Part shown: positions 21,883 to 27,548 of the stretch, one piece after another
Position numbering within the stretch: the stretch's first letter is position 1
Layout of the letters: every line of letters starts with the position of its first letter
Virus record (IMG/VR): IMGVR_UViG_3300034073_002621
Coordinates: 1-27,548 of that record
From: a virus
Length of the DNA: 27,548 nt
Strand: one strand, 5' to 3'
Notes under the pieces: generated by a model
Seen by the model: the letters and a program-made list of their open reading frames with translations, nothing else
What the model was told of the DNA's origin: nothing
The model's database searches: none
Translations under genes and position numbers: made by a program

Positions 21883-22608
21883 ATGAATATTTATTCAAAC
21901 GATTACTATGTCTACGCTTATTTGAGAGCATCAGACAACACTCCTTATTACATCGGAAAAGGTAAAAAAGATAGAGCTTTTTCTCCTAAACATGTAGTAA
22001 CAGTTCCAAAAGATAAAAATAAAATTGTTTTTTTAGAAAAAAATCTTTCTAATATTGGAGCTTTAGCCTTAGAAAGACGATATATCCGTTGGTATGGAAG
22101 AAAAGATATTAATACTGGTATTCTTAGAAATTTGACAGATGGAGGTGACGGTGGAATAGGTTATAAACACACCGAAGAACATAAAAAATACATTAGTAGT
22201 ATATTAAAAGGAAAATCAATTTCAGAAGAATGTAGAAGAAAAATTTCAAAAACATTGATGGGAAGAAAAATGCTTCCGCATGTTAGAGAGATTTTAACAA
22301 AAGCAGTAAAGGGTAAGAAAAAAACCGATGAACACAGACAGAAAATTTCAAAAAGTCACACTGGCATCACTCATACCGATAAAACAAAAGAAATTTTATC
22401 TAAGATGAGTTCGAAAGGAACTTACACCTTTACATCACCAAACGGAAAAACTTTTACTCATCACTCAATAAATCAGTTTGCTAAAGAACATAAATTGAGT
22501 AATTTTTTACTTTATAGTAATGTCAATAAAGGTGTAATATGTGTGAAAAAACCTGGTCAATTAAGAATCACGGGTAAAAACACAATTGGATGGCAGATTA
22601 AACTTTAA
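21883..22608 (+). CDS. GIY-YIG homing endonuclease with NUMOD3-like repeats, 241 aa
   Basis: N-terminal GIY-YIG nuclease: YVYAYLRASDNTPYYIGKG (residues 8-26; first motif YVY), then a helix with LALERRYIRWYGRKD providing Glu/Arg, and ILRNLTDGGDGG with the usual Asn. After it come NUMOD3-like DNA-binding repeats (YKHTEEHKKYISSILKGKS, ISEECRRKISKTLMGRK, HTDKTKEILSK). The C-terminus (YTFTSPNGKTFTHHSINQFA) resembles an intron-encoded-nuclease recognition module. Late promoter and structured leader are upstream. The gene is AT-rich and runs against all others; its stop overlaps that of the zinc-ribbon gene. A recently acquired mobile gene. Confidence 0.88.
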   Translation: MNIYSNDYYVYAYLRASDNTPYYIGKGKKDRAFSPKHVVTVPKDKNKIVFLEKNLSNIGALALERRYIRWYGRKDINTGILRNLTDGGDGGIGYKHTEEHKKYISSILKGKSISEECRRKISKTLMGRKMLPHVREILTKAVKGKKKTDEHRQKISKSHTGITHTDKTKEILSKMSSKGTYTFTSPNGKTFTHHSINQFAKEHKLSNFLLYSNVNKGVICVKKPGQLRITGKNTIGWQIKL

Positions 22609-22754
22609 TCGTCATCTTCATCTAATTTGTCCACATCTACTATCATCTCTGCACAGAACGGACAAAAAGATGGGTCTGATTCTGTATTTTCTTCATCATA
22701 TCGTATCGTAAACTCAGACTCACAATTATCGCAAGTATGTTTCAATGACGCCAT
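22605..22754 (-). CDS. Zinc-ribbon protein, 49 aa
   Basis: Begins MASLKHTCDNCESEFTIRYD, continuing FCPFCAEMIVDVDKLDE with an acidic end. CDNC and CPFC form a classical four-cysteine zinc ribbon. I recognise this small gene (MASLKHTC--C-SEFTIRYDEE) from T4-like cyanophages; it may bind RNA polymerase or DNA, unproven. Start overlaps the stop of the nuclease gene (TAATG); its 3' end overlaps the convergent endonuclease gene by 4 nt. Confidence 0.8.
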   Translation of the reverse strand: MASLKHTCDNCESEFTIRYDEENTESDPSFCPFCAEMIVDVDKLDEDDD

Positions 22755-23185
22755 TAGTTACACCATGAAGATTTCTTTTCACCATGATAAGGTCTTGCAT
22801 GACCATTGGCAATTAATAATGCAGACAATCTTTGACCATTGACAATTACATCACCAAGAACACGACCACCATACTTGTCATGCTTCTGTAATTCAATCAA
22901 TACAGGCAGTTTATTCTTGTATGCATGATTGAGTGTGTCTTTTGTAAACTGTGATGCCTTCTCTGCGGCTGCTGCTTCTTGTGGGCAGGATGCACGATGA
23001 CCTTTCTCAGGAGTATCTACACCAAGAACCCGTATCGATAGTTTCTTTGGCAACGGATCAGGTAGAAATGGTGCTGCAAATTCTACTGTGTCACCATCAA
23101 TTACTCTTGTAACTTTCCAATCATATGGATTTGCAAATGCACTAATGGCAAATAACGAAAGTATTGTTGTAATTATAATTTTCAA
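22754..23185 (-). CDS. Exported Snase-like (thermonuclease) protein, 143 aa
   Basis: Signal peptide MKIIITTILSLFAISAFA. The staphylococcal nuclease fold is visible: VIDGDTVEF (calcium-binding Asp), IRVLGVDTPEKG with the Arg/Asp/Thr/Glu active-site set, a long AAAAEKASQFTKDTL helix, KYGGRVLGDVIVNG with the second catalytic Arg, and LLIANGHARPY. It should cleave DNA or RNA in the periplasm, a location that would suit host-DNA recycling or exclusion of other phages. It is conserved in several marine phages. Coupled to the zinc-ribbon gene. Confidence 0.9.
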   Translation of the reverse strand: MKIIITTILSLFAISAFANPYDWKVTRVIDGDTVEFAAPFLPDPLPKKLSIRVLGVDTPEKGHRASCPQEAAAAEKASQFTKDTLNHAYKNKLPVLIELQKHDKYGGRVLGDVIVNGQRLSALLIANGHARPYHGEKKSSWCN

Positions 23186-23194
23186 TTGTATCTC

Positions 23195-23392
23195 CTAAAA
23201 GTATTCTTTGAGTGCCTGCAATTTATCATGTGCATTCGCAAGTTCAGAAAGTTCTTTATCAATTGCTTCGGTAAAGTTTTCGTGTTCTGGTATTGCTCTT
23301 GGATTTGCAATCATAATATCTATATTCAGTTTGTGTTGTGCAATTTTTGATTCATATTGCATAATCATCGTATCAATTATATTTTCTTTCAT
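23195..23392 (-). CDS. Conserved small protein downstream of nrdB, 65 aa
   Basis: Start at 23392 (MKENIIDTMIMQYESKIAQH) by ATGA overlap with nrdB. A helical hairpin: NIDIMIANPRAIPEHENFTE and AIDKELSELANAHDKLQALK. I recognise this gene as a very constant small protein in T4-like cyanophages and pelagiphages (pattern MQYESKIAQH...IPEH...AID-EL), function unknown. Possibly a four-helix dimer. Confidence 0.88.
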   Translation of the reverse strand: MKENIIDTMIMQYESKIAQHKLNIDIMIANPRAIPEHENFTEAIDKELSELANAHDKLQALKEYF

Positions 23393-24387
23393 GCGGCTTT
23401 CCCCCATACATCATCCCAATTACCTGACAGAGCACCTTTTGCGTAGTCGGTACTTCTGTTTTCGAAAAAGTTAGTATGGCCCGGAGCATTCAACATAAAC
23501 TCCACCCAAGATAATGGATTCTTCTTAACCTTAAAAATTCCTTTGAGGCCAAGACTAATTAATCGTCTGTCAGCAATATATCTTATGTATTGCTTCACAT
23601 CTTCAGGTGTTAAGTTTTCCATTGGACCCATATTGAAAGACAAATCAATAAAGTTGTCTTCCAGTTCAACCATTTTTTCTGCAATTTTGTAAATTTCAGA
23701 TTTCAAATCATCATTCCAAATCTCACGGTTTTCTTCAACAAATGTTCTAAACATTTTAATCATTGCTTCACAATGTTGAGTTTCATCTACGATTGACCAT
23801 GCAATGATTTGACCCATACCTTTCATCTTACCGTGTCTTGCAAAGTTGAGTAACATGATAAAGGAACTAAAGAGTTGCATACCTTCAGTAAACGCAGAAA
23901 ATACGGCGATGTGTTTTGCGGTATTTTGTTTCGTTGTATTTTGATTTGAAATATCTAACACATAATCATGTTTGTCTTTCATTTCTTGATATTGCAGAAA
24001 TTCATTGTATGTCGAATCAGGCATACCAAGTGTTTCGATGAGGTGTGAATAGGCAGCAATGTGAACTGCCTCTCTTGCGGCAAAACCAAGAAGCATCATG
24101 CGAACTTCTGGTTGAGGAAAATAAGGCAAATAATTTTTAACATACGCACCGGCAACATCAATGTCACCTTGCGTAAAGAAACGAAAGATGTTTGTAAGAA
24201 AGTATTTTTCTTCTTTTGTTAATACATTTTTCCAATCTTTTACATCTTCTAACATCGGCACTTCATCGGCCAACCAATGAGAACTTTCGTGTTTTTTCCA
24301 TGCATCATAACACCATGGATAGTTGAATGGTCGAAAACTCATTCTTTCGTCTGTTAAAATTAATTCGTTATTTTTCTTCTTTGTCAT
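23389..24387 (-). CDS. nrdB: Ribonucleotide reductase beta subunit NrdB, 332 aa
   Basis: Class I R2, which holds the diiron-tyrosyl radical and with NrdA reduces ribonucleotides to dNTPs. ATG at 24387 overlaps the glycosyltransferase stop. Diiron ligands and radical site are present: Asp in GDIDVAGAYVKN, EAVHIAAY (Glu, His and the radical Tyr at the usual spacing), Glu in FTEGMQLF and the E-T-Q-H of IVDETQHCEAM. C-terminus GHTNFFENRSTDYAKG ends in GNWDDVWGKAA. Length is normal for a phage R2. Its separation from nrdA by about 2.5 kb of other genes is unusual. Confidence 0.96.
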   Translation of the reverse strand: MTKKKNNELILTDERMSFRPFNYPWCYDAWKKHESSHWLADEVPMLEDVKDWKNVLTKEEKYFLTNIFRFFTQGDIDVAGAYVKNYLPYFPQPEVRMMLLGFAAREAVHIAAYSHLIETLGMPDSTYNEFLQYQEMKDKHDYVLDISNQNTTKQNTAKHIAVFSAFTEGMQLFSSFIMLLNFARHGKMKGMGQIIAWSIVDETQHCEAMIKMFRTFVEENREIWNDDLKSEIYKIAEKMVELEDNFIDLSFNMGPMENLTPEDVKQYIRYIADRRLISLGLKGIFKVKKNPLSWVEFMLNAPGHTNFFENRSTDYAKGALSGNWDDVWGKAA

Positions 24388-25358
24388 TTCATTGCCTCTA
24401 AAAATTGTTGTCTTGCTCTCTGCCATGTCCAATTTCGTGATGAACTACTTACATCACCACGATTTAACGACAGGCATATTGTTACTGCTTTCTGTAAATC
24501 ATCTCCGTAATGCCCATTCACACCATTAAAAATTGTTTCTCTTGGTCCTGGTTCATCGTATGCAGCAACTGGTGTGCCACACGCCAATGCTTCTAAAATT
24601 ACAATACCGAAAGTATCGGCTTTTGAAGGAAAGACAAATACATCTGCACTTGCAATCCATTCTGCAAGTTCGGCACCCTCTTTTTTACCGATGAATTCTA
24701 CATCAGGATATTTTTCTTTCAATTCATTCAAATATGGCCCATTACCAATCAATACTTTACGATTATACTTTAGTTGACAGAAATCGTCAAGACCTTTTTC
24801 TTTTGATATCCGAGAAACACAAACGATGTATGGTTTTGTTTGTTGCCTTCTTTTCGGATTAAAGATTTCAAAGTCTACACCTCTTGTCCATACCTTTAGA
24901 TTTTGAAAACCTAAATTCTCTAACTTATACTTCATGCCATTTGTTGGCACTAATATGTTTTTTGACTTTTTATGAAACCATCTGAAGTATGGGTAGAATA
25001 ACTTCGCAGGTAAGCCAAATTGTTTCTGTATGAATTCAGGAAATAAGGTATGAAAACTTGTTGTGTATGTATATTTTCTTTTTGCCAGTATTTTTCTTGC
25101 ATATAAACCTAAAGGACCTTCTGTCGCAATGTGTATAGAATATTGTTCATGCATCATTTGCCATAGTTTTTGTTTAATTTCCCATGGATTGTAAACCACT
25201 TCAATCTCAGGATAGTTAGGCAATGCAATTCTTTTCAGACCAGGTAAATAAGGATGAATGATTTCAACACCATACATGTCTTTGGTAACATTTTGATATG
25301 TTCGCACAACACCATTGACTTGTGGTTCCCATGCATCGGTGATGATTGCAATTTTCAT
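24384..25358 (-). CDS. GT4 glycosyltransferase, Agt/SqdX-like, 324 aa
   Basis: Start at 25358 (MKIAIITDAWEPQVNGVVRT), where PQVNGVVRT is the acceptor-side signature of the lipid-glycosylating GT4 group that includes Agt, MgtA and SqdX. The C-terminal donor domain has VCVSRISKEKGLDDF and ADTFGIVILEALACGTP, with DTFG where other GT4 enzymes have ETFG. Ends WQRARQQFLEAMK, similar to the WEAAARQFL tail of Agt proteins. It would transfer a sugar, probably from a UDP donor, to diacylglycerol at the inner-membrane face. The PlcP-type neighbour supplies exactly that lipid in alphaproteobacteria. Sugar unknown. Confidence 0.85.
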   Translation of the reverse strand: MKIAIITDAWEPQVNGVVRTYQNVTKDMYGVEIIHPYLPGLKRIALPNYPEIEVVYNPWEIKQKLWQMMHEQYSIHIATEGPLGLYARKILAKRKYTYTTSFHTLFPEFIQKQFGLPAKLFYPYFRWFHKKSKNILVPTNGMKYKLENLGFQNLKVWTRGVDFEIFNPKRRQQTKPYIVCVSRISKEKGLDDFCQLKYNRKVLIGNGPYLNELKEKYPDVEFIGKKEGAELAEWIASADVFVFPSKADTFGIVILEALACGTPVAAYDEPGPRETIFNGVNGHYGDDLQKAVTICLSLNRGDVSSSSRNWTWQRARQQFLEAMK

Positions 25359-25525
25359 ATCTTCTCGCAACGGCCCTCGACCTTAAATGATTCAAACTTT
25401 AACCAATAATTCATTGTCTGTAATGCATCAAGACACTGTTGTTGTGTCTTGAACTCCATCGTTATTCTTCCTGGTATGTCGCTTGGATTGTTTATGTGAA
25501 CTGCCAGAAGTATCATTAGCCACAC
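25355..25525 (-). CDS. Small exported protein with two late cysteines, 56 aa
   Basis: A strong Shine-Dalgarno (AGAGGAG) fits a GTG start at 25525. The product MWLMILLAVHINNPSDIPGR has a short hydrophobic N-terminus. The mature part contains TQQQCLDALQTM and KVEGRCEKI, two cysteines. Architecture matches the 61-residue protein at 9130-9315. It overlaps the phosphoesterase C-terminus by 98 nt in another frame and the glycosyltransferase start by 4 nt. Role unknown; may be an envelope protein. Confidence 0.65.
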   Translation of the reverse strand: MWLMILLAVHINNPSDIPGRITMEFKTQQQCLDALQTMNYWLKFESFKVEGRCEKI

Positions 25526-26270
25526 CTTGTATCTCCTCTGTCCATGTGATAAGTTCCCATTTACCATTCATGTGTTCAACGAGTGCGGTACAAGATTCAA
25601 CCCAATCACCATCGTTCATATAAACAACATCATCAATCATTTTAATTTCTGCGTTATGTATATGACCGCAAATCACACCATCATAACCTTTCCGCTTACA
25701 ATATGCTGCAAGATTATTCTCAAACTGAAATATAAAATCTACTGCCTTCTTAACTTTAACTTTAAGATACTTAGATAGAGACCAATAGCCAAAACCAAGT
25801 CGATGGCGAATCCAATTAAACTTAGTGTTGAGATAGAGGACAAAATCATATGCTTTGTCGCCTAGAAACGATAACCAAGGCGCAAGGCGTGTAATACCAT
25901 CAAATAGGTCGCCATGAGTGACCAGATAGTGCTTACCGTCAACACCAATGTGTTCATACTGATTGAAGATTTCCACATTGCCAAAACTGAACCCATACGG
26001 GAGCATTGGTCTGAGAAATTCATCATGGTTTCCTGCAATATAGATGACTCTTGTGCCTCTCTTTGCATAACCCAGTATTCTTCGCACGACATTGGTGTGA
26101 CTTTGTTTCCATCGCCACTTGTTCTGTTGTATCTTCCAACCATCTATTATATCACCTATGAGGTAAAGCGTTTCGCATGTATTGTGTTTCAAAAAATTAT
26201 TTAATAATTCTGCCTTACAATCTTTAGTTCCCAAATGCACATCACTAATGAATATGCTTTTATAGTGCAA
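25428..26270 (-). CDS. plcP: PlcP-type calcineurin-like phosphoesterase, 280 aa
   Basis: TTG start at 26270 with GGAAG upstream, abutting the stop of the Bax-inhibitor-like gene; no ATG is available before the first motif. All calcineurin-fold motifs are present in order: FISDVHLG, IGDIIDGWKI, AGNHDEFL, VTHGDLFDG and ICGHIHNAEI, with NDGDWVESCTA near the end. The pattern fits LpxH-related PlcP (a phospholipase C releasing diacylglycerol) better than LpxH itself: the WESCTA and AYDFVLYLNTKFN segments are typical of PlcP. The extra C-terminal 35 residues after LITW are Ser/Thr/basic and overlap the next gene. The adjacent glycosyltransferase supports the reading. Confidence 0.82.
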   Translation of the reverse strand: MHYKSIFISDVHLGTKDCKAELLNNFLKHNTCETLYLIGDIIDGWKIQQNKWRWKQSHTNVVRRILGYAKRGTRVIYIAGNHDEFLRPMLPYGFSFGNVEIFNQYEHIGVDGKHYLVTHGDLFDGITRLAPWLSFLGDKAYDFVLYLNTKFNWIRHRLGFGYWSLSKYLKVKVKKAVDFIFQFENNLAAYCKRKGYDGVICGHIHNAEIKMIDDVVYMNDGDWVESCTALVEHMNGKWELITWTEEIQGVANDTSGSSHKQSKRHTRKNNDGVQDTTTVS

Positions 26271-26936
26271 TTATTCTTCCCTGTTTCCTAAGAGTTGTAA
26301 TAAACTTGTAAAGATATTGATAAAGTTGATATACAAACTCAATGCACCAAACCATTGCATTCTGCGAATTTCATCAGTATTTGCAGACCAAAACATATCA
26401 CGGATGCGATTCATGTCATATGCAGTCAGACCCAAGAAAATAAGAATGCAAAGAACATTCAATGTCATTTGTAATGCGGTCGATGCAACAAACATGTTTA
26501 CGATACTTGCAACAATCAGACCAATCACACCTGCAAAAAGAAATGGGCCAAAACCAGACAAGTCTTTCTTTGTAAAGTATCCATAGAATGCCAATGCACC
26601 AAATGATACTGTAGTTCCTGCCAATGCAAGAACAATACTTGCACTTGTGAATATATGAAACAGTAAACTTAAACTCAGACCCATGACACCTGCAAATGCA
26701 AAGAACCATGCCTTGATTGTGCCTTCACTCATCGATTCACCTTTGAATGCAATGAACAAACTCATTGCCAGTGGTGCAAAGATGATGACATAACCAAGAA
26801 GACTACCAAACAATACTGGTGCCATCGGTGCCATAACTGCTGCAATTAACATCGTAACAAAAACTGCAAGTGTCATTCTACTCAAAACACCTGCAACTGC
26901 TGTATTCAAACTTTGTGCTGCTGTAAGTGTGGTCAT
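26271..26936 (-). CDS. Bax inhibitor-1/YccA-like membrane protein, 221 aa
   Basis: Start at 26936 with GGAG 8 nt upstream. Seven hydrophobic helices in the BI-1 pattern (LSRMTLAVFVTMLIAAVM, LLGYVIIFAPLAMSLFIAF, WFFAFAGVMGLSLSLLFHIF and so on). It has FKGESMSEGTIKAWFFAF, YGYFTKKDLSGFGPF and YDMNRIRDMF, where the conserved Asp of the BI-1/TMBIM family sits. YccA in bacteria binds and restrains FtsH; TMBIM members also affect calcium leak. In a phage it could protect early proteins from FtsH or delay lysis. It lies directly before the PlcP gene in the same transcript. Confidence 0.88.
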   Translation of the reverse strand: MTTLTAAQSLNTAVAGVLSRMTLAVFVTMLIAAVMAPMAPVLFGSLLGYVIIFAPLAMSLFIAFKGESMSEGTIKAWFFAFAGVMGLSLSLLFHIFTSASIVLALAGTTVSFGALAFYGYFTKKDLSGFGPFLFAGVIGLIVASIVNMFVASTALQMTLNVLCILIFLGLTAYDMNRIRDMFWSANTDEIRRMQWFGALSLYINFINIFTSLLQLLGNREE

Positions 26937-26946
26937 ATTTTCTCCT

Positions 26947-27548
26947 TTACCCTTCACACGCAAGGCAAACTTCTTCTGTTGCCAATTGTTTCAAATCAAT
27001 TTCTTTGATAACTTCTCTTTCAATTCTCTTACTTACTTTGTCTGCCTTTGCAAGTTTCTCTGAACGGCAGTAGTAAAGCGTTTTCAATCCCTGCTTCCAT
27101 GCCTGAAAGTGAACGGCATGTAAATATTTTATGTTAACATCTGGTCGAAAAAAGAGGTTGACAGATTGCGCTTGGTCAATGTAACTCTGTCGGTTAGCTG
27201 CATGGTCCACGACCCATCTTTGGTCGATTTCCATAGAGGTCTTATAGACATCTTTCGTCCATTCATCCAGAAAGTCGAGATGTTGAACGGATCCGTCATT
27301 GGCGATGATGGAGGACCAAATTTCGTTATAGTCGAGTTTACTGTCATTCTCACATTTCTCCTTAATGATTTTATCCAAATGTTTGTTCTTGTTTAGAAAT
27401 GCACCACTCAATGTATCTTGGCGATAAGCATTAGCACGAAAAGGCTCGATAGATGGACTAGTGTTACCCATAAGAATAGAGGATGATGCATTGGGAGCAA
27501 TAGCCATGACATGACTAAACCTACGACCGGTACCAACAGCATCGGGTG
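26947..27548 (-). CDS. nrdA: Ribonucleotide reductase alpha subunit NrdA, C-terminal part, partial
   Basis: The gene runs off the right edge; about 200 C-terminal residues are seen. Motifs are PDAVGTGRRFSHVMAIAPNA, then SSSILMGNTSPSIEPF of the active-site barrel, WKQGLKTLYYCRSEK with the paired Tyr of the radical pathway (E. coli Tyr730/731), and the redox CLACEG tail. Together with nrdB this gives a complete-looking aerobic reductase. The stop abuts the next gene's ribosome site (GGAG). The N-terminal two thirds are outside the window. Confidence 0.95.
   Translation of the reverse strand, partial: PDAVGTGRRFSHVMAIAPNASSSILMGNTSPSIEPFRANAYRQDTLSGAFLNKNKHLDKIIKEKCENDSKLDYNEIWSSIIANDGSVQHLDFLDEWTKDVYKTSMEIDQRWVVDHAANRQSYIDQAQSVNLFFRPDVNIKYLHAVHFQAWKQGLKTLYYCRSEKLAKADKVSKRIEREVIKEIDLKQLATEEVCLACEG

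Follow-up and report, generated by a model that had tools for sequence, protein, structure and literature searches.

A candidate PlcP–Agt-like lipid-remodelling gene pair within the ribonucleotide reductase block of a T4-like phage

Bacteria including SAR11 HTCC7211, Erythrobacter, Agrobacterium, Pseudomonas aeruginosa and Methylosinus trichosporium carry operons that pair plcP, encoding a metal-dependent phosphoesterase of the phospholipase C type, with agt, encoding a diacylglycerol glycosyltransferase. The SAR11 agt gene leads to MGDG and glucuronic acid diacylglycerol (GADG) in Escherichia coli (PMC4796936), the Methylosinus pair is required for GADG under phosphorus limitation (PMC9239053), and in P. 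aeruginosa PA3219 (PlcP) is followed by PA3218 (Agt1) (PMC8528852). Control by the Pho regulon, through a Pho box, has been seen for the P. aeruginosa plcP. Two named phages, Mosig EXVC030M of Pelagibacter and S-SRM01 of Synechococcus, also carry single genes of the PlcP family, which are annotated there as LpxH-type hydrolases or diphosphatases. Here, we analyse a 27,548-base IMG/VR virus record (IMGVR_UViG_3300034073_002621; hereafter the window, meaning the whole stretch), the proteins of which were scanned against Pfam, NCBIfam and PHROG profiles. Its minus strand holds a gene for a PlcP-like phosphoesterase (25428..26270; 280 amino acids, TTG start) and, downstream, a gene for a GT4-family glycosyltransferase (GT) assigned to the Agt clade (24384..25358; 324 amino acids from the ATG at 25358). 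The pair shares homologous enzymes, gene order and key residues with the bacterial operons. In contrast to them, however, it lies in a T4-like phage, inside a block of ribonucleotide reductase (RNR) genes and without a recognizable Pho box; the phage copies form clades of their own, and in related phages a GT2-family enzyme often replaces the GT4. From sequence comparison, we propose that this phage probably carries a Proteobacterial two-enzyme lipid-remodelling cassette that may serve phage nucleotide and DNA synthesis.

Assignment of the phosphoesterase

The upstream protein matches Pfam Metallophos (PF00149, E = 8.5e-14) and carries five metallophosphoesterase motifs (D10-x-H12, GD40, GN81HDE, H119GD and GH203IH205) as well as a W223VESCTALVEH tail, as the initial annotation had described; residues 249–280 form a hydrophilic tail that was modelled with low confidence. 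The GNHDE motif is kept in 87 of the 88 viral-group rows of the alignment, the exception (L084) being a 70-residue end piece. Identity reaches 55% over 243 residues to a PlcP-type protein of P. aeruginosa (locus L297), the gene of which directly precedes a GT gene; from species and gene order, we infer that this is the PA3219–PA3218 locus. The window protein is further 61% identical to a Hirschia protein, 51% to that of Kordiimonas gwangyangensis, 53% to that of phage Mosig and 35–36% to that of S-SRM01. A PlcP-like protein of Sinorhizobium meliloti pSymB was excluded as a characterized reference, because it could not be established as the PlcP that has been studied.

LpxH (UDP-2,3-diacylglucosamine diphosphatase) has the metallophosphoesterase fold in common with PlcP, and LpxH models are the best NCBIfam matches of the window protein. 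These matches lie far below their cut-offs, however (48.2 against 134 bits and 37.4 against 190 bits), and identity to E. coli LpxH is just 21.6% over 125 residues. The active-site motifs also differ: LpxH has GNRDF, GHTH and LGAWH, whereas the window protein and the other aligned PlcPs have GNHDE, GHIH and GDWV[ED]S. GNRD is a hallmark of LpxH. When a 68-row tree is rooted on LpxH, the viral proteins do not group with LpxH but nest within the bacterial plcP radiation, in which many neighbours have a plcP–agt pair; 20 viruses of the window's group form one clade (support 96/95), to which S-SRM01 attaches by a very long branch, while Mosig and two other groups of viruses are placed elsewhere. 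The LpxH outgroup of this tree also has a very long branch, and its bootstrap was still unsettled. Given the sub-cut-off scores, the low identity, the tree position and the lack of GNRD and GHTH motifs, an LpxH (lipid A) identity was set aside, and we assign the phosphoesterase to the PlcP type.

Assignment of the glycosyltransferase

The downstream gene was listed as an open reading frame (ORF) at 24384–25370, for which the ATG at 25358–25356 is the better start. With this corrected start, the initial annotation's description of a GT4 enzyme holds: the protein matches Pfam Glycos_transf_1 (E = 2.1e-22) and has the PQVNGVVRT and ADTFG motifs. Over its full length it is 43% identical to GTs encoded beside plcP in small, low-GC alphaproteobacterial genomes, 42% to a protein of Caulobacter ginsengisoli, 40% to one of K. 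gwangyangensis DSM 19435 and 36% to the P. aeruginosa GT; K. gwangyangensis is the species of GTkg, a GT within the published Agt clade (PMC8231724). WaaG, WaaB and WcaC of E. coli give weak, partial matches, E. coli WcaI gives none, and identity to a protein labelled MgtA is 31%.

Mutational data on the SAR11 enzyme GTcp allow the active site to be compared residue by residue. Alanine at G16, G82, G85, H104, R190 or K195, and likewise at D256, T257, F258, G259 or E264, abolishes or nearly abolishes GTcp activity, and H104, T162, R163 and W320, at the modelled diacylglycerol site, are crucial (PMC8231724). All 14 of these residues are present in the window GT, as mapped by alignment through relatives rather than GTcp itself. 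Position 256 is Glu in three of the 35 rows of the GT alignment (A3), all three viral; the same Asp-to-Glu change cost GTcp more than 90% of its activity (PMC8231724), so these three GTs may differ in use.

The GT model is confident (predicted local distance difference test (pLDDT), 93.2) and GT-B-like, close to BshA, MshA and PimA. The GT tree places the window GT in a clade with five phage relatives (100/99), next to which stands a larger clade of phage GT4 enzymes (100/100), and both fall among GTs adjoining plcP, including that of K. gwangyangensis; WaaG and WaaB sit on very long branches without a firm place, the E. coli outgroup is not coherent and the root is weak. On these relationships, we group the window GT with the Agt clade, in line with the Agt-like identity first suggested for it.

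The pair in other phages

Viral contigs searched with PlcP alone as the query yielded at least 598 relatives, the best 80 of which (L003–L082) were counted; six additional loci (L083–L088) came from a GT query and stand outside the count. Directly downstream of plcP lies a GT4 gene in 26 of the 80 loci (among them L073, in which the plcP frame was misjudged) and a GT2 gene in 51, and the remaining three end less than 130 nt past plcP, so that a GT comes next in 77 of 77 testable loci. Clustering at 95% protein identity leaves 60 clusters, 58 of them testable, all 58 with a GT (24 GT4 and 34 GT2). A quick tree of PlcP, in which 67 of the 81 rows are different and the L073 row has a very long branch, shows at least 13 switches of partner type, six of them forced by starred branches. 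Because the partner varies but the slot after plcP is never empty in the testable loci, the PlcP–GT pairing is probably under selection in viruses. The pairing is thus common among uncultured phages and no one-off.

Against L003, the nonsynonymous (dN) and synonymous (dS) divergences are 0.036 and 0.44 for plcP and 0.066 and 0.70 for the GT gene. A dN/dS near 0.1 for both indicates strong purifying selection, suggesting that the lipid genes are maintained and, together with the close relatives, that the pair is more than chance. By comparison, nrdB, the RNR small-subunit gene next to them, is near saturation at silent sites against L003 (dS 2.8) and L084, whereas plcP and the GT gene are much closer; it thus seems that the lipid genes travel between phages independently of the neighbouring RNR gene, through apparent recombination between the RNR and lipid modules.

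The GT2 partner (PF00535; PF13506 is also above cut-off in the one protein scanned) is about 236 amino acids long, as at L033:6901–7617, L066:6895–7617, L030:6932–7642 and 48 further viral loci. At E 1e-15, no close relative was found in 142 alphaproteobacterial genomes, the one class searched, in a search without a positive control. Plasmids likewise gave no close relative (the best match being 29.5% over most of the length, with shorter pieces up to 37%), and neither did phage records (pieces of 26–32%). This phage-type GT2 may be an undescribed diacylglycerol glycosyltransferase.

To characterize the carriers, marker genes were searched in 50 of the largest records behind the 88 viral loci and in 14 control genomes. 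Gp23 occurs in 8 of the 50 records and in none of the controls; terminase, a marker that also matches in 6 of the 14 controls, occurs in 12. Among the 14 records larger than 120 kb, terminase is present in 10 and Gp23 in 8, and the Gp23-bearing carriers span 136–525 kb, including contigs of 345, 353, 367 and 525 kb. Ribosomal protein S8 was found in none of the 20 records of at least 70 kb, as compared to all 14 control genomes. Smaller records mostly lack terminase and Gp23 and are little informative. By these markers, the carriers of the pair are truly phages, some of them giant.

The pair in bacteria

When bacterial genomes were scanned with the alignment of phage PlcPs, 257 relatives came up; the best 80 were kept, and these are, by their record titles, mostly alphaproteobacterial. 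One locus (L130) was dropped as a phage contig in a metagenome-assembled genome (MAG), leaving 79, of which 78 have at least 400 nt after plcP. A GT4 gene directly follows plcP in 49 of these 78; most of the other 29 are titled as Hyphomonadaceae and kin. PlcP is encoded, at E 1e-20, in 103 of a drawn set of 289 alphaproteobacterial genomes, and 26 of the 30 best loci in that set have a GT4 next to plcP, one of the other four being cut 70 nt after plcP. The plcP gene of a betaproteobacterial (Mitsuaria) plasmid adjoins ppk1, with no GT annotated beside it. The dropped contig (L130, also L211; G054:C123), from a MAG labelled Muricauda sp. TMED12, carries a phage-type plcP–GT4 pair along with PhoH, endolysin and exonuclease genes, and is apparently a phage contig misbinned in that MAG.

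Proposed function

By homology, the two enzymes would act in sequence. Metal-dependent PlcP would split the infected cell's phosphatidylglycerol and phosphatidylethanolamine into diacylglycerol and a phosphorylated head group, which, rather than free phosphate, is the product of a phospholipase C. The GT4 would then transfer glucose, galactose or glucuronic acid onto the diacylglycerol, with a UDP-sugar as donor, to give a phosphorus-free glycolipid, as suggested by homology and by the conservation of all mapped catalytic and diacylglycerol-site residues. The membrane would be retained while phosphorus leaves it. We regard this predicted route from phospholipid through diacylglycerol to glycolipid as one that homology supports well. 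We are less sure of its use: placed between RNR genes, the cassette would support the phage's synthesis of nucleotides and DNA where the water is poor in phosphorus. Phosphate salvage, proposed in the initial annotation, stands as one possible purpose, which PstS genes in related phages and the RNR block speak for and the missing Pho box speaks against.

The genes that accompany plcP in other viruses bear on this purpose. Of 50 virus records that bear plcP, 10 have a PstS above cut-off and 22 encode a fatty acid desaturase, with up to four per record; the one desaturase scanned is near DesA (378 bits, below the cut-off of 400). Among 50,697 phage records, the desaturase matches just Mosig, itself a PlcP phage, whereas PstS matches 90, mostly cyanobacterial phages. 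Genes for phosphate uptake are a known feature of phages, especially of cyanophages. Examples of the desaturase lie at L080:5191–5937, L033:5293–5997 and, in phage record MT647606.1, at 59705–60319. A Gram-negative porin gene is located close to plcP in L040 (4836–5744; Porin_4, E = 3.5e-28), L022, L023 and L081. A sister contig of the window's phage (L212:10118–12726) has in a row a heptose-adenylyltransferase-like gene, an ORF without a PHROG match, an RmlC-like gene and a GalE gene (above cut-off); this row is possibly a sugar-nucleotide module, in which GalE could supply UDP-galactose.

Several results weigh against the proposed cassette or its phosphorus-supplying role. The 36–43% identity of the window GT to Agt-type GTs is below the published range within the Agt clade (46–58%, as compared to less than 25% to other GT4 enzymes), although accepted Agts share 41–43% identity (PMC8528852, PMC9239053), similar to the values seen here. 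The solved folds nearest to the PlcP model (pLDDT 79.4) are LpxH, at roughly 20% identity, a match expected because PlcP and LpxH are sister families. With the single consensus used, neither the window nor the Mosig stretch holds Pho boxes beyond chance: the window has 2 matches, neither of them before plcP, where 3.56 are expected, and the Mosig stretch has 2 where 1.78 are expected. This lack counts against a plain Pho-regulon gene, but a Pho box is not defining for a phage PlcP, since nothing obliges a phage to rely on the regulon of its host. For the GT2 that is the partner in most phages, no use of diacylglycerol is known, and its weak PHROG matches are O-antigen enzymes. Both PstS and the desaturase are absent from the closest relatives of the window that share its GT (G001 and G050), and the gene frequencies above are a rough yardstick, as they compare different sequences and methods (one-protein tblastn and family models). 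PlcP can also stand without a GT. In a separate set of 80 Mosig-side loci (L213–L292), 72 have room for a next gene, which is a GT4 in 44, a GT2 in 14 and neither in the remaining 14; as some of these contigs are possibly cellular, the set was kept apart from the main count and no support was drawn from it. The PlcP genes of Mosig and S-SRM01 themselves have no GT within the loci read, unlike that of the window. More broadly, the five phage records that match PlcP (one genome being present twice) show no GT4 or GT2 of these kinds within the stretch read, including L298 and L300, where neither GT kind matches near PlcP.

The main rival explanation keeps the chemistry and changes its purpose: the phage would alter the host membrane or envelope (charge, curvature, receptor anchoring or lysis timing), thereby excluding competing phages or aiding membrane-bound replication or lysis, and phosphate gain would be a by-product. 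The missing Pho box fits such a purpose, as do the desaturase in 22 of 50 records, the porin in 4 of 80 loci and the alternation of the GT partner between families; furthermore, a paper on Ruegeria pomeroyi that deals with aminolipids and the attachment of bacteriophages links lipids with phage binding (PMC9938194). PstS and the RNR genes beside the pair point instead to a supply of phosphorus and nucleotides, and PlcP, which by eye has no export signal, should act from the cytosol. We consider envelope change unlikely as the principal purpose, but the most serious of the alternatives. It is highly improbable that the pair modifies lipopolysaccharide (LPS), with an LpxH-like phosphoesterase of lipid A synthesis and an LPS or O-antigen GT: phage records do label PlcP a UDP-2,3-diacylglucosamine hydrolase or diphosphatase, LpxH provides both the best NCBIfam matches and the best folds, and pelagimyophage GTs have been taken as LPS enzymes (PMC7029224), but the LpxH scores and identity are low, the window protein reads GNHDE, GHIH and GDWVES, and its GT falls among Agt-type GTs. 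Phage glycosyltransferases for DNA or O-antigen, which lie outside the set compared with the window GT, would be unusual in having a PlcP partner. Least credible is a nucleotide or cyclic-nucleotide phosphodiesterase (for defence, or for recycling beside RNR) with the GT as an unrelated neighbour, for although calcineurin-fold enzymes include many such activities, the RNR genes are adjacent and weak YfcE and Pol II small-subunit matches exist, a GT adjoins plcP in every testable viral locus and in most cellular loci counted, and identity to a PlcP of known role is high.

Returning to the lipid-remodelling cassette, we tentatively extend it, with somewhat less than even confidence, to T4-like phages more widely: these phages, including those on 345–525 kb contigs, might run a membrane-remodelling programme of their own, in which PlcP and an exchangeable lipid GT, often with a DesA-like desaturase and PstS, mine phospholipid phosphorus and impose a virus-specific glycolipid membrane. 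If the proposal is correct, phages would have an internal phosphorus source drawn from the host membrane and would rebuild the membrane of the infected cell, so that membrane lipids in nature would be changed by viruses too. Infected cells would then be expected to contain glycolipids made by the virus, a prediction for which the PlcP of Mosig in Pelagibacter offers a cultured test case; there, the gene adjoins a putative phosphate ABC transporter gene, and a fatty acid desaturase gene lies elsewhere in the genome. Counts of plcP in metagenomes, which serve as a marker for phosphorus stress in bacteria, may also include viral copies.

Relation to earlier reports

The initial annotation knew of no described phage copy. 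For the pair this stands, as we found no description of a phage plcP–agt pair in the open full-text literature, a scope outside which subscription papers and preprints lie; it does not stand for PlcP by itself, in view of the single genes of Mosig and S-SRM01. The accessible part of the Mosig announcement (PMC7892664) has none of the lipid or phosphate terms tried. A pelagimyophage survey refers to a desaturase and to GTs of the LPS type; neither phosphoesterase nor LpxH occurs as a word in its accessible text, in which PlcP itself was not looked for (PMC7029224). The accessible parts of two further papers (PMC9004378, PMC10504331) contain no PlcP-type term among those tried. In the Ocean Gene Atlas paper, PlcP matches are mostly from Proteobacteria and Bacteroidetes (PMC6030836). 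The gene table of a Lake Baikal viral metatranscriptome lists one ‘lpxH K03269’ (PMC9611531), plausibly the same PlcP family under another name.

Genomic context of the pair

All genes of the block lie on the minus strand, in the order nrdA, BI-1, plcP, GT, nrdB and an SNase-like nuclease gene. The 3′ part of nrdA (26947..27507; PF02867, NF006577), encoding the C-terminal part of the RNR large subunit, has a frame open towards the window end. It is followed by a gene for a Bax1-I/YccA-like (BI-1) membrane protein (26271..26936; PF01027, E = 2e-44; ATG at 26936, listed ORF to 26963), which has no PHROG match. The BI-1 stop abuts the plcP TTG at 26270, which is preceded by a GGGAAG-like ribosome site; the plcP stop and the GT ATG lie 69 nt apart, and the GT stop overlaps the ATG (24387) of nrdB (23389..24387; PF00268, E = 7e-79). 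The staphylococcal-nuclease-like (SNase-like) gene lies 3′ of nrdB (22754..23185; PF00565). On the basis of this spacing, the block from nrdA to nrdB is likely one transcript. Over 22700–27548, neither promoter-like sites (14 against 16.6 expected) nor terminator-like sites (2 against 2.7) exceed those in shuffled sequences. The best promoter-like site, matching 11 of 12 bases, is within the GT gene (24790–24762) and faces nrdB, which may therefore also have a promoter of its own.

The arrangement recurs in part elsewhere. Record L083 (42 kb) is identical to the window across the shared part of PlcP (202 amino acids), the GT, NrdB and the SNase-like protein, and several further phages also have nrdA or nrdB close to plcP. 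A BI-1/YccA-like gene is also found near plcP in L005 and L047. Elsewhere in the window are PHROG matches to tail-fibre and virion proteins, a SegE-type GIY-YIG endonuclease and, on the plus strand, an ORF with a NUMOD3 motif (21883–22608; PF07460), which probably encodes a homing endonuclease.

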